Shown here piece after piece: positions 1,014 through 11,103 of a DNA stretch of 38,516 bases. The DNA is from Acidobacteriaceae bacterium (GTDB lineage Bacteria > Acidobacteriota > Terriglobia > Bryobacterales > Bryobacteraceae). Under the pieces are notes generated by a model. It was not told where the DNA came from. It worked only from the letters and a program-made list of their open reading frames with translations, and ran no database searches. The DNA is taken from contig JADCJL010000051.1 in the NCBI GenBank assembly GCA_020247055.1, positions 1 to 38,516 of the forward strand, given 5' to 3'. Numbering within the stretch: the stretch's first letter is position 1; each line of letters begins with the position of its first letter. A program made the translations under genes and the position numbers.

Positions 1014-2861
1014 TCAGCTCAACTGGGGAATGCGCCAGAGGGCGACGGCTTGATGGGCCATCCAGTTTTGGTGGGCCGCGATGCGATCCGGGGTCCACTC
1101 GGCATGGTCGGCGGCGAGTTTGCTGGTGATGGCGAAGCTGGATTGTGCGAAAACGGATCGCTTGGCGCCGTATTCGCGATTGGCGAGGTCGCCATTGCGG
1201 TTGGCCTCAAGCAGGGTCATGTTGCCCAGGCGGTAGAGGAGGGCCTCGGCGTCGTCGTTCCCGATGCCGCCCCAGCCGTCGGGGGCGTTTTGCGGCAAGA
1301 CGTGTTCGATGTTGAAGGTGGCGCTGGCGAAGTCCAGATCCTGGCCGGAGAGGTGCTTTTCGATGGCGCAGAGGAGGAACCGGACGACTTTGTTGTTGCG
1401 GGAATCGGTGGTGCGGATGGTTTTGTTCGGGAAGGCCGAGCGGAAGACTTGGTCTTCGGGATAGATGCTACGCAGGCGTGGGAGGGCGTCGGTGAGGGTG
1501 GTGAGCTGGCCGTTGGCAATGCCCTCGGCGACCTCGTTGTATCGCCGCTCCTGTTCCCCGGTGCCGTAGGAGCAGATGACGTTGAACCGCGTCGAGATGA
1601 CCACGGTGGCGCGCAGCAGGGCGGTGAAATCGGCCGGAGCGAAGGTACGCCGGGCGGCCAGGAGCAGGGGAAAAGGCTGGCGCACGCGGAATAGTTTTAG
1701 CGTTGCAGCCAGGCGCTTGTCTTCCGGGCTCCAGTCGGAGGGCTCGGGCGACGACAGGGCGAGGTAGGTATCGAGGTCCTCTTCGATTTCGCGGAGGAGT
1801 TCGAAGGCCACCTGCCGGGTGCGTACGGCGGAACGAATGGTTTTGAAGAGATCGGAATGGCGGGCGAAGGGGTGTCGGCTGTTCCAGTGGGCGCGAAGAA
1901 AGTCCGGGAAGTTCTCGGCCTGGAGGCGACCGACGACGAACTCCCAGCGGTCTTCGAGAGAACGGAGTTCGGGATCGGACTCGGCGCCGGAGTCGAGGAG
2001 GGAGAACAGGTAGTTCTTGAGCAGATCCGTGGCCGAGAGGCGGACGCGGCGGGCGTTGAGCGTTTCGAAGACCTTGTAGGCATTGAGTTCGTCGGTAACG
2101 GTGATGACGGTGAAGAACAGGCGGTCGCTGAGGTCTTCGCCCAGTTGGGCGAGGCGCATGCCTTCGTTACCGGCAGTTGCTATGAGGTGTTCGCTGACGC
2201 GCTGGTCAAACCATGCGAACGCCTTGCGCAGGGCGTGTTCCGAGGCGCGGAGACCGCGCTGGGGGAGGCGGCCGAGCGGTGCGAGATAAGTTTGAAAGTA
2301 GTAGTTGTTGTTGCGATTGAGGGTGAGTTTGGGACGGGCGACGAGGGTGACGGGATCGAGGTAGCCGATGTAGGTTTGCCGCATCTGGTCGAGCCGGCGC
2401 TGGTTCGAGGCGGCATCGTTGCCGGCGTCGATCAGACGTTGGAGGTTTTTCAGAATGGCCAGCAGCAGGATGGTGATGGTGGTGAGGCGTTGTTGGCCAT
2501 CGATGACGTCAAAGGTTTTGTCATCGGCGGACTGGAGGACGAGATAACCGAGGTAGTGGGCAGTTTCGCCATCGGTCTGGAGCGTGCCCTGAACATCCTG
2601 CCACAGCTCCTCCCAGTCGTCCTGGGTCCAAGTGTAGTCCCGCTGGAAGCGGGGGATGGGGTAGGTAAGGCCGTTGCCGAGGAGCTTCCGAAAGGTGTTG
2701 TTTTCGATCTTGAAGGGAGTAGTCGACGCCGGTGGGGGTGGTGATGAGGAAGGCGCCGGTTTCGGTGCGGCGGGGGGGCGGTGGATTGCTGGAGTTCGAT
2801 GGATGCGATGCGGAGGAGGAGGGCGATGACTCCGTCGTCGTTGCCCGGATCGTGGGTCCAC
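1014..2861 (-). CDS. DUF262-DUF1524 (GmrSD-like) nuclease with a displaced 5' end
   Basis: The protein combines an N-terminal DUF262 (ParB/sulfiredoxin-fold, NTP-using) domain with a C-terminal DUF1524 HNH-type nuclease domain, as in GmrSD type IV restriction enzymes, which cut modified DNA. Counting from the GTG at 2861 (615 aa), the DUF262 core begins at residue 51 (FKIENNTFRKLL). The signature DGQQRLTT is at 121-128 and FETLNARRVRLSATDLLK at 265-282. The nuclease signature IEHVLPQ is at 518-524, followed by RLGNMTLLEANRN. All expected motifs are intact. The first 50 codons are not typical of the family: they read low-complexity proline/arginine sequence out of frame through a decayed heparinase fragment (2715-2930). 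No ATG, GTG or TTG lies in frame between 2861 and codon 51, so either the gene borrows the GTG at 2861 or it has lost its start. The nuclease assignment is firm; whether it is expressed is uncertain. Confidence 0.85.
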   Translation of the reverse strand: MDPRSGQRRRSHRPPPPHRIHRTPAIHRPPAAPKPAPSSSPPPPASTTPFKIENNTFRKLLGNGLTYPIPRFQRDYTWTQDDWEELWQDVQGTLQTDGETAHYLGYLVLQSADDKTFDVIDGQQRLTTITILLLAILKNLQRLIDAGNDAASNQRRLDQMRQTYIGYLDPVTLVARPKLTLNRNNNYYFQTYLAPLGRLPQRGLRASEHALRKAFAWFDQRVSEHLIATAGNEGMRLAQLGEDLSDRLFFTVITVTDELNAYKVFETLNARRVRLSATDLLKNYLFSLLDSGAESDPELRSLEDRWEFVVGRLQAENFPDFLRAHWNSRHPFARHSDLFKTIRSAVRTRQVAFELLREIEEDLDTYLALSSPEPSDWSPEDKRLAATLKLFRVRQPFPLLLAARRTFAPADFTALLRATVVISTRFNVICSYGTGEQERRYNEVAEGIANGQLTTLTDALPRLRSIYPEDQVFRSAFPNKTIRTTDSRNNKVVRFLLCAIEKHLSGQDLDFASATFNIEHVLPQNAPDGWGGIGNDDAEALLYRLGNMTLLEANRNGDLANREYGAKRSVFAQSSFAITSKLAADHAEWTPDRIAAHQNWMAHQAVALWRIPQLS

Positions 2862-2930
2862 ATCTTGGGGGTGGTTCGCGTCACCTCGTTCCAGCCGGTC
2901 CAGTTGCTGGTGAGGGGCGGGGCGGGAACG
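2715..2930 (-). pseudogene. Decayed copy of the heparinase gene 3' end
   Basis: On the minus strand this stretch repeats two parts of the heparinase gene at 8563-11103. The first (about 2770-2930) reads LTSNWTGWNEVT, then WTHDPGNDDGVI and SIELQQSTAPP. It matches heparinase LTIDWTGWKEVT, WTHYLGNDDGVI and SIELQQTTGAP, encoded at about 8928-9085. The second (about 2715-2770) reads RRTETGAFLITTPTGVDYS and matches the heparinase C-terminus RRTEDGAILIT...TPTGVEYS (about 8569-8658), with 27 bases missing inside. About 270 bases that separate the two parts in the intact gene are also missing, and the parts are in different frames. An identical 22-base run occurs at 2824-2845 and 8976-8997. The relic stops exactly where the DUF262 homology begins, and both copies have the same orientation. 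The alignment was made by eye. Confidence 0.85.
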
Positions 2931-2988
2931 GGTGAGGCGGACCGCCGTCTATTCCTCGGCGGCCCCGGGGCCCCGCCTGTAGGGGATC

Positions 2989-3009
2989 GACCTCGGACGT
3001 GCCGAGGTC
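2989..3009 (-). terminator. Hairpin downstream of the MBL gene
   Basis: An 8-bp perfect stem (GACCTCGG at 2989-2996, CCGAGGTC at 3002-3009) with a 5-nt loop lies about 30 bp past the stop codon of the MBL gene on the minus strand. A G-run (2982-2985) and a C-run (3009-3012) can extend it with a bulge. There is no T-tract, so it may be a Rho-assisted terminator or a 3'-end stabiliser. A second self-complementary run, GGCCCCGGGGCC, lies at about 2961-2972. Confidence 0.5.
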
Positions 3010-3040
3010 CCCACTACCGGCCGGGCCGTTCGGAAAAGGG

Positions 3041-4564
3041 TTACGGAATCCGCAGGTGATAGTCTACGCAGAGCGGGTCGGCCTCGTCGACGGCGTCGAC
3101 AAACTGTTTCCAGGTTTGCGGGCTTAACCCGGCCGGATTCGATTCGCGGACACAACTTTTGCCGGGATCGGCGTAGAGCACCCGGCCTTTGGCCTGGGCT
3201 GCCAAGGCCGGCACCAGTTTGGCCGCGGGCATGTCCCAACCCTGTTTGGTCGACGCAAACTCGGTGTCGGTAGGCACGGCGGCGACCAACTCCGGACTGG
3301 TCATCCTGGCGAGTCCGGCGCGGAGTGTGGCGTTGCCGCTGCCGTGGTGGCCGACCTTGTAGAAGACGGTGCGGGCCAGAAGATCGCCGGCGGTGACGCG
3401 GGCGCCATTTCTTAACTGGAAGACACGGTTCTGCCAACTCTTCCAGCTTTCCAGTTCGGAATCGCCGACGAACAGAAGCACCTTGCCCGAGGCAACCAGT
3501 TCGATGGCGAGGACGAGACTGGTGTTGTTGATGGAGTTATCCAGTTGCAAGGCAAGCGACGCGGCCGAATGCAACCAGTCGTTATCGATCCGGCGCCAGG
3601 GCTCGTCGCGATAGCGGCGGGTGAGTGGCCAGATGGGATCGCTTGCCGTGTCCGTGCTGGCCGACTGTTTGAACATCTCCTCTTCGGGCCAGGCGAGGGA
3701 GATATCGAAGGGACGAACGCGATCGGCCGCGGCCTGTTCTTCGGTATTGGCGGTGGCGTCCGAAGCTCCGAGGAGCGCGGAGGCCCAGGCGAAGGCGGCG
3801 CCATCTTTTGGATTCCTGCTCTTGTTGTCCTTTTCGTCTTTAAATCCCTCTTCGTGGGGCGTCCGACCCTGGCGGAGAGCATCGCGATCCTTGGGTGGGG
3901 CAAGCACATAGACGCGCAGTCCTCCGGGGATCCAGTCGCGCTCCAAGACGTCACCCGGCTCGAGAAACCTGTCTCCGGGCTTCCGCTGATTGGTGACGAA
4001 CTGCATGGCCTGATCGCTGCGTTCGGAGAAGTTCGCGGCTCCGAGGGCACCGGAGAAATCCATGACCTTCGCCGCGGCGACGCCACACTCCCGATCGTAG
4101 GCGCTTTCCGAGGTCATCATGCGGGTAACGGCCATGCCGACCGCTGCGGCCATGGCGTTCGTCTTTTTCTTGTTTTCGGTGGCGATGGTTTGGTCCGGGT
4201 CTTCTGTCCATGCCGCCCAGACTTCGTCGGGCTTTAACCCGCTAAACTGCTCCTGGGCGAAGAAGAAGCCGGCGACGTGGTCCCAGTGTTCATGGGTGGC
4301 CACGAGGGCGTTCACGCGATTGCCGGTGGTTTTCCGGATATGGGAGGCGATGTTATTGAGCCGATCCTTTTGGCCGGGGGTGCCGATGAAGACGCCACAG
4401 TCGATCAGGATATGGTTTTCTTTGCCGGCATGGGGAAATGTCAGGAGCCAGCAATCGCCGAGTCCCGGGCGGTACATGCGGATGCGAACCGAAGCGTTAG
4501 CCGCTTTTTTCCTGGGAGGGGTCTTCTTGCCGGGAGTGGTGGTCTTTTTTGTGGCGTTAGGCAT
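3041..4564 (-). CDS. ComEC-like metallo-beta-lactamase-fold hydrolase
   Basis: This 507-aa protein has the metallo-beta-lactamase fold of the ComEC/Rec2 hydrolase branch. The opening motif GLGDCWLLTF is at residues 34-43. The metal-binding motif HEHWDH is at 91-96, giving ligands H91, H93, D95 and H96. The later ligand regions are VGDSE (D368) and KVGHHGSGN (H406/H407), preceded by NNTSLVLAIELVASGKVLLF, which is typical of ComEC-type domains. A charged insert of about 250 residues separates the two halves. The N-terminus is a lysine-rich tail (residues 5-20) without a signal peptide or membrane segments, so it should be cytoplasmic. The start codon overlaps the end of the S8-gluzincin gene by 8 bp and a good ribosome site (GGAGGAAGG) lies inside that gene's end, indicating translational coupling. 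The substrate is unknown: relatives include nucleases, nucleotide phosphodiesterases and other hydrolases. Confidence 0.85.
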   Translation of the reverse strand: MPNATKKTTTPGKKTPPRKKAANASVRIRMYRPGLGDCWLLTFPHAGKENHILIDCGVFIGTPGQKDRLNNIASHIRKTTGNRVNALVATHEHWDHVAGFFFAQEQFSGLKPDEVWAAWTEDPDQTIATENKKKTNAMAAAVGMAVTRMMTSESAYDRECGVAAAKVMDFSGALGAANFSERSDQAMQFVTNQRKPGDRFLEPGDVLERDWIPGGLRVYVLAPPKDRDALRQGRTPHEEGFKDEKDNKSRNPKDGAAFAWASALLGASDATANTEEQAAADRVRPFDISLAWPEEEMFKQSASTDTASDPIWPLTRRYRDEPWRRIDNDWLHSAASLALQLDNSINNTSLVLAIELVASGKVLLFVGDSELESWKSWQNRVFQLRNGARVTAGDLLARTVFYKVGHHGSGNATLRAGLARMTSPELVAAVPTDTEFASTKQGWDMPAAKLVPALAAQAKGRVLYADPGKSCVRESNPAGLSPQTWKQFVDAVDEADPLCVDYHLRIP

Positions 4565-7500
4565 ATCCTTCCTCCTGGTTGGACGTGGCCGAGGAGTCGT
4601 GAATCATGGCGAAACGCGAGCCGGGGCCGGCGAAGGGAGTGTTGGTGAAGTAAGTGGATCCTAAACCGCGGCCCGCGGCGCGGAACCGGGCAATTTCCGC
4701 CTGGCGAAGGGAGCTACGGAGGCTTTTGCGCGCGAGGAAGCGGATTTCACCGGTATCGCAGTTGGCGATGATGGTGGAGCCTCCTTCGCAGCCATCGGCT
4801 GCCACGTGTTTGATCCAAACGATGACGTCGCGTCGCGTCATGCCGGAGTCGTCCTGCCGTTCGGCGAAGTTGAGGGCGTGGATTTCAAACTGCGGGTCGG
4901 CGGCCTCGGACTCCCAGATGCCGAGTTCCCTGGCCAGGGTCTGCTGGAGCGGTTTTGGCATTTCTTGGAGCGCGTCTTCCAACAGATTGTGCAGAATGGC
5001 TCTTTCCTGCCGCAGGAGCTGGTAGACTGCTTCGCGAGGCTGCAGTTGGGAGTTCAGACGCTGTCTGCGGGCGGCGGTTGTTGTTACTGCAGCGGCCTTG
5101 CGGGGTTTCGGGAGCCAGGCCTTTAGAATGTTCTGGTCTGGTATGGGCCAGGCGACGGGATCGGTTTCGCGGGAGATCCGCCGGACGATCTCGCCGAGGA
5201 GGCGGCGGCGGGAGAGCAGTTTTGCGCCGGAGGGGGCCTGGCCGAGCGCAGCTATACTTGCGGCGGTGGGCGGATGCCACTGCAGAGGTCCTTCGGACAT
5301 GGTGCGAACATCGCGGGGGTAGATGCCGCGTTGGCGGAAGGCTTCGATGAACGCCGGGCGGTAAGCATGCGGATCGGCGGGGAACAGATCGACGTCGGCG
5401 GTGATGACGGCACGGAGGAAGTCGCCGAAGTTGAGGTCGACCGGGGGACAGTAGTCGATGGCGCGGACGCAAATTTGCAGGACATGGTCGGCGGCCTTCA
5501 TGGCTTCGTCCGCAAAGCGATTGATCAGATCGGGATGCAGATCGCCTTTGCCGAGAACTCCGGTGCCATTGGAGGCGATGCGGCGGAGATCGGCGATGCG
5601 GCGGTTATAAATAGTCACGAAGGCATCGAAGACGGCGGCGACGAGGATGGCTCCGCGGTCGTGGGGTTCCTCGGTATTGGCGAGTAAGTTGGGGTCGGGG
5701 TCGGATCCGATGTAGCTGCGGAGAGCGCCGTGGAGTCCGGCGCCGAGGCCGAATTCCTGGGCCAATTCGACCAGGTAGCTGCGCTTACGGAGATCGCCAT
5801 GGGTGCGCGCTAACTCATGGGTGAGGATGGAGGGCAGCGCGAAGTGTTGGAACAGGGCGACGATATCGGCGAAGGCCTCGTGGAAGTCGAGCATATCGTT
5901 GTTGGTGGGCGTGGTTAGTCCTCGGGCCATGCCGTCGAGCAGGGCGTGGGAGGTTTCGTGGGCGATGACGTCGTGCGAGAGGCAGGTGAACACCATGCCG
6001 CCGGGATTGATGGTGCCGATGTCCAAGGGCTGGGCGGGGAAGTATCCGAACAGCAGCGCTTTCTTGAGCGGGTTGTAATAGGCGTTGCGGTCGCGGAGGG
6101 CGTGCGGATAGATGCGTAAGCGGGGGACATAGGCGACTTCCCGACGGCCCTCGACGACCGGAGACCACAGGGCACGGCGTCCCAGTGCTTTCTCGAAGGT
6201 GCGAATGGTCCGCATGGCGACGGCGTAGACCATCTGTTGATGGAACTTGGGATTTCCTTCGTCCGGGTGGAGGCCGTGGTTGGCGATGGCGCGGGGGTCT
6301 TCGAGATCGAGAGGGGCGTAAAAGCAGCCGCTGGCGGGGTCGTGATCAATGACCTCGATGTACTCTCCGGTGGGTCCCGGGGCGAGTTTTTCCCACGGGA
6401 TGGCAATGGGAATGGTGGCGATGCTGGATGTTTCCGGGGAACGGCTGGCGGCCGGATCAAAGGCGAAGACGTGGAGGCGCCGTTCGGTGGGCGGCTTGGG
6501 GTAGAACTGCCCTTTCCCTCCGGATGGACTCGCCGGAGGTTGGGGAGCGCCGGGTTGCCGGTAGGAGTTCCTGAGCTCGGCTTTCAGCCGAGCAGAGGCG
6601 AACGGGCTTTCGAGGGCGGCTTCGAAGAAGCGCTCGATTTGATTTCGGTTGTCGAGTTTTGCGGGGTCCGGCAGGGCCTGTTCGAGGTTGGGATCGCGGT
6701 GCATCAGTTGGGTGAGTTCGAGATTGAAGAGTTCGTCCAGCTTGCTCTTCGGGGTTGGCGCGGCGCGGAAGAGTGTACCGCGCAGTAGTTCGAAGAACGC
6801 GAAGGCCGCCGAATCCGGTTTCTGCTGCCGCAGACTGGCCCGGGCCTGGGCCGTGGCCCTGACGCTGAGGGAGTTGAAGGCTTTGACGACGCCGCGCCCG
6901 AAGTATTTTCGCGATTCGGGAAGCGAGCCATCTGCTTTTGCAAAGAGCGCCGCACGGACCATTTCCACCCGCTGCCAGGGATCCCAGCCGGCGATGGATG
7001 CTTTGTGTTTCTGCAGCCAGAGCGCGGCGGCGGCGGCGACCTGGGGGGTGGCGGAGGAGGTGCCCTCCCCGTCCCAATCGACGATATCTTCGCTACCGAT
7101 TTCCGCCCAGGGGATGTTGGGGGTGAAGGCGGCGATGGCGGTATCCATTTTGCTATCCGGGCCGAAGTTGCCGGACATGGTGCCGAGGGGGAGGTTGTAG
7201 GGCGTGAAATCGGCCATGATGCCGCAGGCGGCCAGGACTCGATGGAAGCGCGCGGGATACACGATGCTTTTGGGAAGACCGAAGTTGTTGCCGGCGGCGG
7301 TGACGAGCAGGATGCCGCTGTCGTAGGCCTGGTTGACGACGTCGGCCCAAGCGGAGGAGGCGACGCCGCCCATACTCATGGACAGAAGGTCAATGGCCGT
7401 GTTGGGGTTGCCTTGCAGCGTCATCAGGTAGTTGAGCGCGTCGACGAAGGCGCTGGTGCGGAAGAGGACGACCGAAGTGGCGATGCGGAGGGGGATTACC

Positions 7501-8171
7501 TCGATGCCCGGGGCGCCGCCGAGGAAGTCGCCGGAGGGAGTAGGCGGCCGAACGTTTTCAAGACGCCTGCCGGCCAGAATGCCGATGGTAGCGGTGCCGT
7601 GCCCAGGATTTTGCAGAAAGCCACCGCGGTCCGGATCGGTGGCGGTGGGGGAGCCGTCCCCGGTGAAGTTTCTTTGCAGGTCTTTGCGCAGATGTTCTGG
7701 CATGGCCTGGTGGTGGAAATCAAAGCCGACATCAAGAATGGCGGCGCGGACGGGCTGTGGATTGGAGATGGCCGCGCGGGCACTGCCCAGTTGCGAGAAG
7801 TTGTCGCCGAGGTGCCAGGCAAAGCCGGGTCCTTGGGGAAAGTTAGTTGATTGTTGATTGACGATGCCGCGATCGTTTTCGGGGCCACCGGCAAAGAGTC
7901 CGCGTTGGCGGCTGGGGGTGGGCAGGACAATGAGGTTTTCGCAATCCGGTTCGACGGGGGCGCCGGATTGCACGGCCTGTTCATAGGCGGCGTCCCAAAG
8001 CTCGGCGATCGTGGCCTGGCCGCCGGCTTCGAACACCTGCCATGCCTTCGGGTCGGCCGCGACTCTGTGGGGTGATTCTTCGAAACGAAACGTATTGCCG
8101 GCCGCGCCGAATCTGAGGGATGGGATGGTGACTTGGCCGCGAACCAGTAGCCGGGCTTTTTGCGTGCGCAT
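4557..8171 (-). CDS. Intracellular dual protease: subtilisin (S8) fused to a gluzincin metallopeptidase
   Basis: This 1204-aa protein carries two proteolytic domains. In the S8 domain the catalytic triad is D147 (AILDVG), H191 (GHGTATIGILAG) and S372 (GTSSATP), with the oxyanion Asn at N295 (TAAGNN). After a linker of about 200 residues, a thermolysin-like gluzincin domain shows HETSH at 738-742 and the third zinc ligand in EAFAD (E765). It is followed by EEPHDRGAILVAAVFDAF, a conserved block in these metallopeptidases. About 250 residues of unassigned sequence follow. The chosen ATG at 8171 has AAAGGAG eight bases upstream; the frame stays open to 8519 but that extension is low-complexity and reads through hairpins. 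There is no signal peptide, which is odd because S8 and M4-like enzymes are mostly secreted zymogens. The first 140 residues could act as a pro-domain or sensor. The MBL gene overlaps its 3' end. Function unknown. Confidence 0.85.
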   Translation of the reverse strand: MRTQKARLLVRGQVTIPSLRFGAAGNTFRFEESPHRVAADPKAWQVFEAGGQATIAELWDAAYEQAVQSGAPVEPDCENLIVLPTPSRQRGLFAGGPENDRGIVNQQSTNFPQGPGFAWHLGDNFSQLGSARAAISNPQPVRAAILDVGFDFHHQAMPEHLRKDLQRNFTGDGSPTATDPDRGGFLQNPGHGTATIGILAGRRLENVRPPTPSGDFLGGAPGIEVIPLRIATSVVLFRTSAFVDALNYLMTLQGNPNTAIDLLSMSMGGVASSAWADVVNQAYDSGILLVTAAGNNFGLPKSIVYPARFHRVLAACGIMADFTPYNLPLGTMSGNFGPDSKMDTAIAAFTPNIPWAEIGSEDIVDWDGEGTSSATPQVAAAAALWLQKHKASIAGWDPWQRVEMVRAALFAKADGSLPESRKYFGRGVVKAFNSLSVRATAQARASLRQQKPDSAAFAFFELLRGTLFRAAPTPKSKLDELFNLELTQLMHRDPNLEQALPDPAKLDNRNQIERFFEAALESPFASARLKAELRNSYRQPGAPQPPASPSGGKGQFYPKPPTERRLHVFAFDPAASRSPETSSIATIPIAIPWEKLAPGPTGEYIEVIDHDPASGCFYAPLDLEDPRAIANHGLHPDEGNPKFHQQMVYAVAMRTIRTFEKALGRRALWSPVVEGRREVAYVPRLRIYPHALRDRNAYYNPLKKALLFGYFPAQPLDIGTINPGGMVFTCLSHDVIAHETSHALLDGMARGLTTPTNNDMLDFHEAFADIVALFQHFALPSILTHELARTHGDLRKRSYLVELAQEFGLGAGLHGALRSYIGSDPDPNLLANTEEPHDRGAILVAAVFDAFVTIYNRRIADLRRIASNGTGVLGKGDLHPDLINRFADEAMKAADHVLQICVRAIDYCPPVDLNFGDFLRAVITADVDLFPADPHAYRPAFIEAFRQRGIYPRDVRTMSEGPLQWHPPTAASIAALGQAPSGAKLLSRRRLLGEIVRRISRETDPVAWPIPDQNILKAWLPKPRKAAAVTTTAARRQRLNSQLQPREAVYQLLRQERAILHNLLEDALQEMPKPLQQTLARELGIWESEAADPQFEIHALNFAERQDDSGMTRRDVIVWIKHVAADGCEGGSTIIANCDTGEIRFLARKSLRSSLRQAEIARFRAAGRGLGSTYFTNTPFAGPGSRFAMIHDSSATSNQEEGYA

Positions 8172-8562
8172 GGAGAAGCTCCTTTCGGGAGTATACAGCG
8201 AAGATCGATTTGAAATCGTGAAAATTGCCTTGTTTTTTGGCGCGGATTTCTTGCTGGGTTTCTTACTGGGTCCCCAGTGCATCCGCAGCGGGCATGCGCG
8301 GGGTTGGGGGTAGGGGCCGGAGGCGGCGTGCCTCCGAAGCACCACGCGCACAACGGACTCGCTTCGTCCGGCAGGCCGGGCCGAAGCGGCCTGTGCGCTT
8401 TTATGGCTTTCGCCATGGCCGTACGCGAGCGGGGAGATCGGCTTTCGTGCTGGTGGGGAGATCGTCGCGGCAGTGCCGCGGCCGGTTCGCGGTCCAGGGA
8501 ATCGGGTTTTCAGGAGCAATGTGCCGCAGCCGGGGCGGGCGCACCGGGCCGGCTGGCTGCGA
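8172..8562 (-). other. 391-bp intergenic region rich in hairpins, between heparinase and the dual-protease gene
   Basis: No gene is convincing here. The region holds several inverted repeats. CGGAGGC/GCCTCCG lies at 8318-8336 (5-nt loop). A three-way-junction-like structure at 8346-8398 has an outer stem GCGCACA/TGTGCGC with inner stems CGGAC/GTCCG (8354-8370) and CAGGCCG/CGGCCTG (8372-8393). On the minus strand a 5-bp stem is capped by a GAAA tetraloop (8403-8416), and near 8470 there is a GCGGCA-G-TGCCGC palindrome. These could end heparinase transcription, form a leader for the protease operon, or be a REP-like repeat. The protease-proximal 100 bp are AT-rich and contain the promoter. Confidence 0.55.
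8190..8218 (-). promoter_or_regulatory. Putative promoter and 13-bp palindromic operator of the S8-gluzincin/MBL operon
   Basis: Reading the minus strand, a -10-like TATACT occupies 8195-8190 and the ribosome site AAAGGAG follows just before the ATG at 8171. Ten bases upstream of the -10, at 8206-8218, is a perfect odd palindrome, CGATTT-C-AAATCG. It covers the usual spacer between -35 and -10, and no good -35 box is visible, as expected for a controlled promoter. The stretch is clearly more AT-rich than its surroundings. The protein that binds it is not identified. Confidence 0.45.
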
Positions 8563-11103
8563 CTACTGGCGGGAGTATTCGACGCCGGTGGGGGTGAAGC
8601 GGATGGTGTCGGTCCAGTTGGGGGCGGTGATGAGGATGGCGCCGTCTTCGGTGCGGCGGAAGCCGGTGATTTCGGGTTCGGCGCCGTAGGGTTCGAGGAG
8701 GGAGAGGAACTCGGTTCCAGCGCCGCGGCGGCGGGCCAGGACGTAGGGGACAGGTTTGGTTAAGTCCTCGCCGAGGCCGTTGCCGGTGACTACCTGCGTA
8801 CCCGGTTCGCCCAACATCCAGAGGCGAAGGCTTTGGATCGGCACCTCGAACGCGGCGACCCGGAGGGGGTCTGCGGTCTCGTAGAGCAGGTCGATATCGT
8901 CGACGAAAAAAGCTCCTTCGGCCGGGGCACCGGTGGTCTGCTGGAGTTCGATCGATACGGTGCGGAGGGGAAGGTCGATGACTCCGTCGTCGTTGCCGAG
9001 ATAATGGGTCCAGGTTTGGGGGTTGGTGAGGGTTACCTCCTTCCAGCCGGTCCAATCGATGGTGAGGAGCGGGGCGACGAAACGTTCGTCGGTGGTGTCG
9101 TTAACGCGGAGGGCGATGCGGTGGCGGGAACCGTCGCCGTAGAGCATCAGGCGGAGGCCGGCGGGCCGGTGGTCCGGCTGGGGAAGGTTGGTGAGGTTGG
9201 GGGTCGAGTAGAGTAAATAGCCAGGGCCGCTGAACCGGTAGTCGAGGCGGCCGGCGCCGGTGCCGGAGGCGGCTTGTTCGCGGGTGGTGGCGAAGGCTCC
9301 TTTGACGTTGGTGGTGCTGGCGTAGACAGAGCCGTAGGCGCCGAGGCGGGCGCGGGCGCCGTCGAAGCGGAGCTGCCAATCGGCGTCGGCGGCGGCGGAG
9401 CGGTTGGCGGTGAGGTGCTGGTAGCCCATGGTGCGGGGCAGGGGCGGGGCGGGGACGAGGGGTAGGGAGGTGAGGACTTCACCCTGGTTGTGGTAGGCCC
9501 AGTCGAATTGATGGAGCTGCTGATCGGTGGCGGTGGCTTCGAACAGATCGAGGGTGTAGTCGCTGGTGTGGAGGAGGGAGCGGGTGAGGCGGACGTGGGG
9601 GTAGGCCTCGCCGGCCGTGGCGCGGACGAAGGAGAAGTTGGATTCGAACCGGCTGGCGAGCAGCTGGCCGGTGGCGGCGGCCTGGGTACGTTCGTCGACG
9701 GTGATGGTGTTGTGGGCGATGGTTTGCTGGTCCCAGGTGGCGTGGGTGGGGGCGCCGTAGGCCTGGGTGCCGGGGTCGATGGCGAGGATGCCGCCGCGGG
9801 CGTAGGAGACGAAGTTGAGCTTGTCGTAGTGGCCGTGGCCGCCGCCGTGGGGGCCGTACTTGAGGATCACGGTATGGTCGGAGGGGGCGGGGGCGCGGAG
9901 GACGGCGTAGCCCGAGTCGGGGAAGAGGGCACTCGTGAGGGGGGCGGGCGAGGCGGCGGGGAGTTCGGGGACGCCGAACAGAAGGGCTTCGCGGCCGCGG
10001 GCGCGGGAAGCGGCGAGGAGGGCGAAGAGGGGATCGCCCCAGCGGGCGTAGGCGGATTCGTACCAACGGCTGTAGTTTTGGAGGTTGACGGTAACGGCGT
10101 CGTTGAAGGGCGGGAGGGTGCCGCCGGGGAGGGCGAATCGCAGGGGAGCGGAGAAGAGGCCTTGGAAGGATGGCTCGGCGAAGAGGCTGATGTCGCCGGC
10201 GCGGGCGGCGAGTTCGGCGGTTTGCCAGAGGGCGTCGAGGGCGTAGTAGTGATAGGTAAAGCTGCCTTCGTACCAGAAGCCGTCGGGGGTTACGGACTGA
10301 CGAAGTTGGAAGCGGAGGCCGCTGGGGCCGTCGAGAGCCTGGGAGAGGAGGGGGCTGTCGTTGAGGGTGACGGCAACGGCGGCGAGGGCGGCGTTGTGCC
10401 AGGACTGCCAGTTGGAGATGCCGGCGTCGTGGCGGAGGATGGTGGCGGCGGCTTCGCGGAGCAGGTGGCGTTCGATGCGGGCGGATTGATCGGGAGAGAG
10501 AATGCCGGCACCCTGGAGGAGATCGAAGGCCCAGGCGAGGGGGAGGAGCCAGATGGCTTCGTCGAGGGTTTGGGCGTGGACGCGGGCGCCGGAGCGGGTG
10601 TTGCGGTTGTCGCGGTCGTGGAGGGGGAAAGCGGGGTAGCGTTCGGCGTAGGCGTTGAGGATCCAGGCGGCTTTTTCGGCGTAGGTGGTGTTGCCGGTAA
10701 GGCGGTAGGCGAGGGCGAGGTCGCGAGCGGCGTTGGCGAGGGCATCGTGGCGGTTGGCGTAGATGACCTGGTCGTAGGGCCAGCCGGTGAGGTGGCGGTT
10801 GTCGCTGGGGCAGACGTGGCCGTTGGGTGGTTCGAAGCGGAGGGGAACGCCGGTGGAGGGGCAGACGTACCAGTGGGGCCACTGGCCGCCTTCAGGGGGG
10901 AGGGCGAGTTCGCGGAGGCCGAAGCGGGAGAGGTGGGACTGGGGCCAGGAGTCGGCGGTATTGATGAGGGTGGCGCGGACGGCGGCGGCCCAGCGGTATT
11001 GATTGATGCTTTCCTGGAGGCGGGCGAGGTCGGCATCGGGAAGGAGCCGGGACTGGGCCGCTAAGGGGCCGAGGCTGACAACAGCGAGGAGGACGAGGCG
11101 CAA
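8563..11103 (-). CDS. Heparinase II/III-family polysaccharide lyase, exported
   Basis: This 846-aa protein starts with a signal peptide (MRLVLLAVVSLGPLAAQ) and continues with an alpha/alpha-toroid alginate-lyase/heparinase-type domain. The motif ISNWQSWHNAALAAV is near residue 233 and FWYEGSFTYHYYALDALW near 280; they carry the Asn, His and Tyr residues typical of these lyases. The heparinase II/III-like beta domain has GGHGHYDKLNF near 425, then DPGTQAYG and AHNTITVDE. A C-terminal beta-rich region (about 670-780) probably binds carbohydrate. Such enzymes cleave uronate-containing polysaccharides by beta-elimination in the periplasm or outside the cell. The start is a TTG five bases after the stop of the upstream reductase-like gene, so the two are probably cotranscribed. 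The last 175 codons are partly repeated at 2715-2930. The codons are almost all C- or G-ending. Confidence 0.9.
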   Translation of the reverse strand: MRLVLLAVVSLGPLAAQSRLLPDADLARLQESINQYRWAAAVRATLINTADSWPQSHLSRFGLRELALPPEGGQWPHWYVCPSTGVPLRFEPPNGHVCPSDNRHLTGWPYDQVIYANRHDALANAARDLALAYRLTGNTTYAEKAAWILNAYAERYPAFPLHDRDNRNTRSGARVHAQTLDEAIWLLPLAWAFDLLQGAGILSPDQSARIERHLLREAAATILRHDAGISNWQSWHNAALAAVAVTLNDSPLLSQALDGPSGLRFQLRQSVTPDGFWYEGSFTYHYYALDALWQTAELAARAGDISLFAEPSFQGLFSAPLRFALPGGTLPPFNDAVTVNLQNYSRWYESAYARWGDPLFALLAASRARGREALLFGVPELPAASPAPLTSALFPDSGYAVLRAPAPSDHTVILKYGPHGGGHGHYDKLNFVSYARGGILAIDPGTQAYGAPTHATWDQQTIAHNTITVDERTQAAATGQLLASRFESNFSFVRATAGEAYPHVRLTRSLLHTSDYTLDLFEATATDQQLHQFDWAYHNQGEVLTSLPLVPAPPLPRTMGYQHLTANRSAAADADWQLRFDGARARLGAYGSVYASTTNVKGAFATTREQAASGTGAGRLDYRFSGPGYLLYSTPNLTNLPQPDHRPAGLRLMLYGDGSRHRIALRVNDTTDERFVAPLLTIDWTGWKEVTLTNPQTWTHYLGNDDGVIDLPLRTVSIELQQTTGAPAEGAFFVDDIDLLYETADPLRVAAFEVPIQSLRLWMLGEPGTQVVTGNGLGEDLTKPVPYVLARRRGAGTEFLSLLEPYGAEPEITGFRRTEDGAILITAPNWTDTIRFTPTGVEYSRQ

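Follow-up and report, generated by a model that had tools for sequence, protein, structure and literature searches.

What role might be served by a bacterial protein that carries two complete proteases of different mechanism in one chain, and whose gene runs directly into that of a ComEC-like hydrolase? The question is raised by a 38,516-nt stretch of DNA from an Acidobacteriaceae bacterium (GenBank assembly GCA_020247055.1, contig JADCJL010000051.1), referred to here in its whole length as the window. Gene A encodes a dual protease with an S8 (subtilisin) half and a zinc protease (gluzincin) half, and gene B encodes a ComEC-like metallo-β-lactamase (MBL) protein. A preliminary description of the locus had proposed an intracellular two-gene protease-hydrolase module similar to the effector-plus-protease modules of conflict systems. 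Our results support this proposal and place its centre elsewhere: the conserved unit is the gluzincin together with the MBL protein, the S8 half is optional, and the dual protease is not what defines the system.

The pair is real, conserved and mobile, and its mechanism can be interpreted by close precedent. Because B resembles published protease-activated gated nucleases, a mechanism is available that the preliminary description had missed. We favour, with a probability of about 0.6, a latent killing switch, where A would cut the gates of B and so free a DNase acting in defence or cell death.

The gluzincin-MBL pair and its variable partners

The gluzincin is not rare, with relatives encoded in at least 568 stretches of one genome collection; the 80 loci named from it are the best 80 of these and hence tilt towards close relatives. 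The region is present in 39 of 201 related genomes, and 117 plasmid records match it at E 1e-5, of which 37 cover at least 80% of the query, many of the other plasmid matches being remote M4-like cousins. The gluzincin tree has 124 rows, and 118 of these could be assessed for the next gene, the contig end cutting the other six (L065, L066, L090, L103, L143, L149). Outside the tree stand six duplicate contigs and six loci with a gluzincin match under 900 nt (L061, L062, L067, L068, L069, L088).

An MBL gene lies directly 3' of the gluzincin gene in 111 of the 118 assessable rows (L159 and L165 among them), and, if the start nearest to the stop is taken, the two genes lie within 30 nt of each other in 102 of 107 cases. 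The two proteins are co-encoded and co-diverging, their distances being correlated (Spearman 0.669, n=107, against 0.161 for the best of 500 permutations), a value to which shared phylogeny contributes. Seen from the other partner, relatives of B occur in 33 plasmid records, at least 26 of which also contain a gluzincin match (L086 is among the fetched loci). One unusual locus, L165 (G219:C21:281391-287817), has two tandem gluzincin cores in one 1389-aa frame, with a third gluzincin frame next to it.

Conservation across distant phyla, which the preliminary description had named as a check, was borne out, with 12 phyla by record label. The tree includes Acidobacteriota, Bacteroidota, Pseudomonadota, Planctomycetota, Chloroflexota, Myxococcota, Thermodesulfobacteriota, Verrucomicrobiota, Armatimonadota, Vulcanimicrobiota and one metagenome-assembled genome of Methanobacteriota, to which a Deinococcus plasmid is added; single labels may be wrong, as many records are metagenome bins. 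Among the matches listed, the closest named gluzincin relatives (L089-L091, 66–75% identical) come from Acidobacteria/Bryobacterales bins.

The S8 fusion, by contrast with the near-constant pair, occurs in 28 of the 124 rows with 7 changes on the tree, so that the dual protease does not stand as the conserved unit for which it had been taken. Where it does occur, the MBL gene is present with 25 of 27 assessable S8-gluzincin proteins, the opposite of the expectation that would have spoken against a two-gene system, namely homologues mostly lacking this gene. The two remaining proteins (L047, L048) have MR_MLE and GMC oxidoreductase genes among their neighbours (L047 was scanned).

Other genes are found around the pair elsewhere, as far as the domain scans reach, many single neighbours lying outside them. 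A neighbour of the patatin cluster stands beside 22 rows with 17 changes on the tree (Pfam was run on two of these, L105 and L154), and Pfam identifies a patatin at two more loci (L064, L133). A Tle1-like lipase neighbour forms a cluster of four loci, of which one was scanned (L097, T6SS_Tle1-like_cat, 7.2e-86), and peptidoglycan-binding genes occur near the pair in L072 and L087. On two Hymenobacter plasmids (L070, L076) an SMC-like gene lies directly 5' of the pair, that of L070 matching LmuB (2.8e-20), and in L120 a TPR-S domain is joined to the gluzincin. In one small clade (L056, L059, L060, L065) the 5' gene encodes a caspase in all three members tested, and an MBL gene is present in none of three assessable members; at L059:2693-5503 the gene directly 5' of the gluzincin is a fusion of Amidase_2 and caspase C14. 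Many stand-alone pairs have no close same-strand gene upstream.

Four further arrangements were observed. At L207:1816-10477 (G441) a gluzincin-MBL-patatin operon is convergent with genes for a caspase, a 446-aa protein and an Avs1a-like MBL (Avs1a 3.2e-58, under the cut-off). L208:3988-7442 (G421) has an S8 subtilase gene (Peptidase_S8, 6.9e-41) followed by an Avs1a-like MBL gene; tblastn found no gluzincin in this 14-kb stretch. At L206:6337-8602 (G251) a patatin gene overlaps an Avs1a-like MBL gene at the contig end, no protease being recognised alongside. In Rhizobium (L088:1-5930), a remote M4-like peptidase has YcaO-like, TfuA-like and adenylate/guanylate cyclase genes as neighbours.

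Anatomy of the two proteins

Gene A and its parts, with gene starts taken from simple open reading frame (ORF) scripts, are as follows.

4557..8171, minus strand: gene A, 1204-aa pro-subtilisin/gluzincin dual protease (ATG at 8171, stop end at 4557)
8179..8183, minus strand: AGGAG ribosome-binding site, 7 nt upstream of the gene A ATG, by direct reading of the sequence
7944..8171, minus strand: A residues 1-76, subtilisin propeptide-like domain
6852..7829, minus strand: A residues 115-440, S8 catalytic domain (D147, H191, S372)
5172..6494, minus strand: A residues 560-1000, M4-like gluzincin domain, the conserved family core
5946..5960, minus strand: HExxH zinc-binding motif, A H738-H742
5877..5879, minus strand: A E765, third zinc ligand
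4677..4886, minus strand: A residues 1096-1165, C-terminal domain of four strands and a helix, from a structure model

The six catalytic residues D147, H191, S372, H738, H742 and E765 lie exactly where the preliminary description had placed them. Chance can be excluded as their origin, as the triad and HExxH...E are invariant in an alignment of 25 S8-fused proteins (A of the window included) and HExxH is kept in all 124 gluzincin rows. The S8 half belongs to PF00082 (1.9e-20, residues 144-425) and has both the Asp/His/Ser triad and the N-terminal propeptide of a pro-subtilisin. The gluzincin has no match to any Pfam family, M4 included, in the Pfam scan; when its profile is compared with PDB, thermolysins rank first with the zinc site, including the downstream Glu, in the right register, at marginal E values (0.014–0.022 for the best five). 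In the fold comparison of A, subtilisins fill the match list, so that other folds are barely covered. The C-terminal domain has conserved G1126, G1127 and T1129 in the S8-fused alignment (numbering of residues 5-1204). A consensus sigma-70 promoter was looked for and none was found, and terminator-like sites occur at chance level only.

Gene B was resolved into the following features.

3041..4564, minus strand: gene B, 507-aa ComEC-like MBL, predicted gated DNase (ATG at 4564, stop end at 3041)
4493..4564, minus strand: B residues 1-24, Lys-rich N-terminal tail
4277..4294, minus strand: HxHxDH metal motif, B residues 91-96
3962..4189, minus strand: insertion 1 relative to ComEC, about B residues 126-201, with a dip of the predicted local distance difference test score (pLDDT, 59) at 171-180
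3533..3883, minus strand: insertion 2 relative to ComEC, about B residues 228-344, with block pLDDT of 53–82 over 231-340
3707..3712, minus strand: B Pro285-Phe286, conserved island in insertion 2, a candidate protease site
3461..3463, minus strand: B D368, metal ligand
3344..3349, minus strand: B H406-H407, metal ligand region

The 8-bp overlap with gene A (4557-4564) and the full set of metal ligands had been noted before, and both are confirmed: H91, H93, D95, H96, D368, H406 and H407 are kept without exception in all 54 MBLs aligned. B has a Lactamase_B match (Pfam, 3.2e-8) and the ComEC-like MBL nuclease fold with its metal site intact. The anchor distance is 315 in B vs 124 in ComEC, and the excess of about 191 residues falls into the two insertions. 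Pro285-Phe286 is near-invariant, and a Lys-rich tail is frequent, among relatives of B. The best PADLOC match of B is the LmuA model (7e-14), and it scores 30.9 bits against NF041809 (Avs1a), under the 420-bit cut-off. When B is compared by profile with two Avs1a-like MBLs, the N-terminal part alone aligns (73% and 96%), so that the positions of the insertions are not matchable to those proteins in this way. Gene B also contains a 21-nt inverted repeat (90%), at window positions 3322-3342 and 4071-4091, 728 nt apart.

An intracellular location of A, inferred earlier from the lack of a signal peptide, is consistent with a crude hydrophobicity scan, in which the best 15-residue Kyte-Doolittle mean within its first 45 residues is 0.71 vs 1.87–2.14 in five positive controls. 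The signal peptides in relatives that would have spoken against an intracellular system are mostly not seen: at the first possible start all 121 relatives stay below the weakest control, with a maximum of 1.61 (L157), and this maximum rises to 1.83 (L034) if the first six starts are all allowed. A second measure, based on 10 uncharged residues, brings six of the 121 up to the lowest control, 2.00, at some start (L034, L044, L045, L091, L092, L093); all are S8-fused, and for these a later start with a signal peptide is possible. A membrane-helix-like hydrophobic stretch occurs somewhere in the chain of six of the 121 relatives, and the maximum for B itself is 1.94.

Genomic location, proposed mechanism and alternatives

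The source genome (6.56 Mb, 358 contigs) carries the two genes on a segment which is absent from two genomes of the same genus, where flanks of approximately 88–93% identity adjoin an empty site.

2715..8562, no strand assigned: segment absent from two same-genus genomes, its left edge at about 2611 or 2715, depending on the genome
2771..2924, no strand assigned: decayed 154-bp piece at the left edge of the segment, 81% identical to 8923-9076 in the neighbouring heparinase gene

As two near relatives lack it, the segment is accessory, and the core genomic position that would have argued against a two-gene system is not found. The site adjoins metabolic genes. On some plasmids the pair has defence neighbours, namely a CBASS cyclase (L075) and two SIR2 proteins (L073).

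On the simplest interpretation, B is unlocked by A, as B has the gated anatomy and the protease family of A travels with that of B. A would be synthesised in the cytoplasm in zymogen form, with the propeptide holding the subtilisin half, and would be activated by a trigger, for which we infer phage infection or DNA damage. Activated A would then cleave one or both of the inserted loops of B, and removal of the gate would free the metal site of the ComEC-type DNase core. B would degrade DNA, its Lys-rich tail probably keeping it on its substrate, and the cell would die or stop growing. Of the two halves, the gluzincin would more probably cut B directly, given that it and the MBL form the near-constant pair; initiation or sensing would more probably fall to the S8 half, given that it is optional and that its position is taken by other genes elsewhere. 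Tentatively, and with less than even confidence, this can be extended to a two-step cascade in one chain, where a pro-subtilisin initiator and a gluzincin executioner unlock a gated, often histone-tailed DNase, as one form of a widespread and unnamed death or defence system with an exchangeable initiator (S8, caspase, TPR-S, patatin-associated or SMC).

Several observations weigh against a killing switch. In the tree, seven rows have no MBL gene (L047, L048, L056, L057, L058, L059, L060), nor do five remote cousins outside it (L061, L062, L067, L069, L088), although L068 has one. Insertion 1 has no clear near-invariant cut-site residue, W119 and E121 lying at its edge, and a tail of 15 aa is absent from 48 of 91 MBLs. 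The scan of seven window neighbours revealed no recognisable defence gene, nor was a separate sensor gene recognised. Viral contigs searched with A and with the gluzincin profile contained no relative. Enrichment in defence islands, which the preliminary description had named as a check, is not demonstrated, as a PADLOC case-control scan of 118 ORFs per side gave no clear excess (56 families in cases vs 53 in controls). Cases were ORFs beside 20 loci on long contigs and controls one stretch per same contig; 165 and 243 ORFs were found and 122 and 125 drawn, the unscanned ones being four patatin-cluster cases (L125:11610-12905, L127:11623-12918, L131:6472-7968, L166:11568-13400) and the last seven controls. 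Among the 25 families listed per side, those of the cases include mad3 (3 ORFs), AriA (2), PD-T4-6, mad6, PDC-S48 and MkoA (1 each), and those of the controls include mad2 (2 ORFs), MTase_II, QatC, mad3 and DndA (1 each). Phage records gave one full match, MT836994, and one weak partial match. The former (L087, MT836994.1) is an 'UNVERIFIED' phage scaffold from human faeces, which may be bacterial, with a gluzincin-MBL pair and a peptidoglycan-binding gene 5'.

The order of events could also be reversed, the S8 half cutting B and the gluzincin acting on S8 or on other cell proteins. That this is possible is argued by L208, where S8 alone is paired with a gated-type MBL, but the S8 fusion is absent from 96 of the 124 gluzincin rows and the MBL is still present in 86 of the 91 assessable ones among these, which makes the reversed order unlikely. 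We also regard as quite unlikely a module for stress proteolysis or cell death unrelated to phages, in which both proteases would act on cell proteins and the MBL would be a housekeeping hydrolase. The sampled flanks without a clear excess of known defence genes and the metabolic surroundings of the window site are in keeping with such a module; the patchy and mobile distribution is not, nor are the similarity of B to defence MBLs, its two insertions and the Lys-rich tails.

It is improbable that gluzincin, lipase and nuclease are delivered to competitors as interbacterial effectors. Tle1-like (L097), patatin and peptidoglycan-binding genes among the neighbours would fit delivery, but the relatives have no signal-peptide-like first start in the crude scan, and it is the MBL that stays nearly constant, the partners being variable. 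Processing of a precursor by A, to mature a peptide product, would fit an alternative offered in the preliminary description and is extremely unlikely. The S8 half does score with mycosin and PatA-type proteases, under their cut-offs, and a YcaO and a TfuA gene accompany the remote M4-like cousin in Rhizobium; however, a YcaO gene is named in none of 17 annotated plasmid stretches, the near-constant partner is a nuclease-type MBL, and this subfamily offers no support for maturation in an analysis that did not search for small precursor ORFs.

Comparison with known systems

Each half of A has familiar relatives. Like pro-subtilisins and intracellular subtilisins, A has a propeptide and a catalytic domain with an intact triad, and it shares the lack of a signal peptide with the intracellular ones; it differs from both in that its S8 part is joined to a zinc protease in one chain. 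The HExxH...E zinc site is in register with that of thermolysin-like M4 peptidases, from which A differs by having no M4 Pfam match, no secretion signal that could be seen, and long N- and C-terminal parts of its own. S8 domains and metallopeptidase domains have been described from other conflict systems (Kaur et al. 2020, PMC7159879, in its main text, where the terms MBL and patatin are absent).

The combination with B is reminiscent of gated pro-nuclease/protease pairs in Hachiman (HamM), AVAST type 1 (Avs1a/b), Lamassu and DRT. Tuck et al. (2025, PMC12799240) showed for ComEC-like MBLs with two gating insertions that a trypsin-like or caspase partner unlocks them, after which they degrade DNA; the authors also mention proteases of 'other diverse families' alongside such nucleases (Fig. 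4A, fig. S2). A two-insertion ComEC-like MBL, a co-encoded protease and horizontal spread are common to those pairs and the present one. In those pairs a trypsin-like protease is joined to a defence-associated enzyme (HamA, Avs or LmuA), typically with the nuclease gene upstream, whereas here the partner is a gluzincin with an optional pro-subtilisin and the MBL gene is downstream. A, being S8 plus gluzincin, is neither trypsin-like nor a caspase, no sensor was recognised in the window, and B remains under the Avs1a cut-off of AVAST type 1.

Lamassu is approached by the LmuA match of B and by the SMC-like gene 5' of the pair in L070 and L076, but there is no SMC among the scanned window proteins (the scanned flanking genes, compared for an LmuB-type SMC, belong to other families), and a 5' SMC was seen at these two loci only, some 5' neighbours being unscanned. 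The term 'Lamassu-Hydrolase_Protease', which we take to be a subtype name, was not found by literature search. Canu (CanABC) agrees in gene order, with the protease gene 5' and the MBL gene 3', and in a protease unfused to a known defence core; it has a caspase and a partner protein in place of gluzincin/S8 (PMC12799240). No Peptidase_C14 occurs among nine window proteins scanned; canu-like and gluzincin-type modules lie side by side in L207.

Literature searches gave no recognised description of a gluzincin or S8 partner for a B-type MBL, nor of the dual-protease form, although the supplement of Tuck et al. (PMC12799240) may already list such a partner. If the reading proposed above is true, gated-nuclease immunity would reach further protease classes, and a bacterium would hold an initiator/executioner protease pair in a single chain. 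A and B are thus best compared with nuclease-protease pairs of a known type, to which they would add new protease partners and a dual-protease form.

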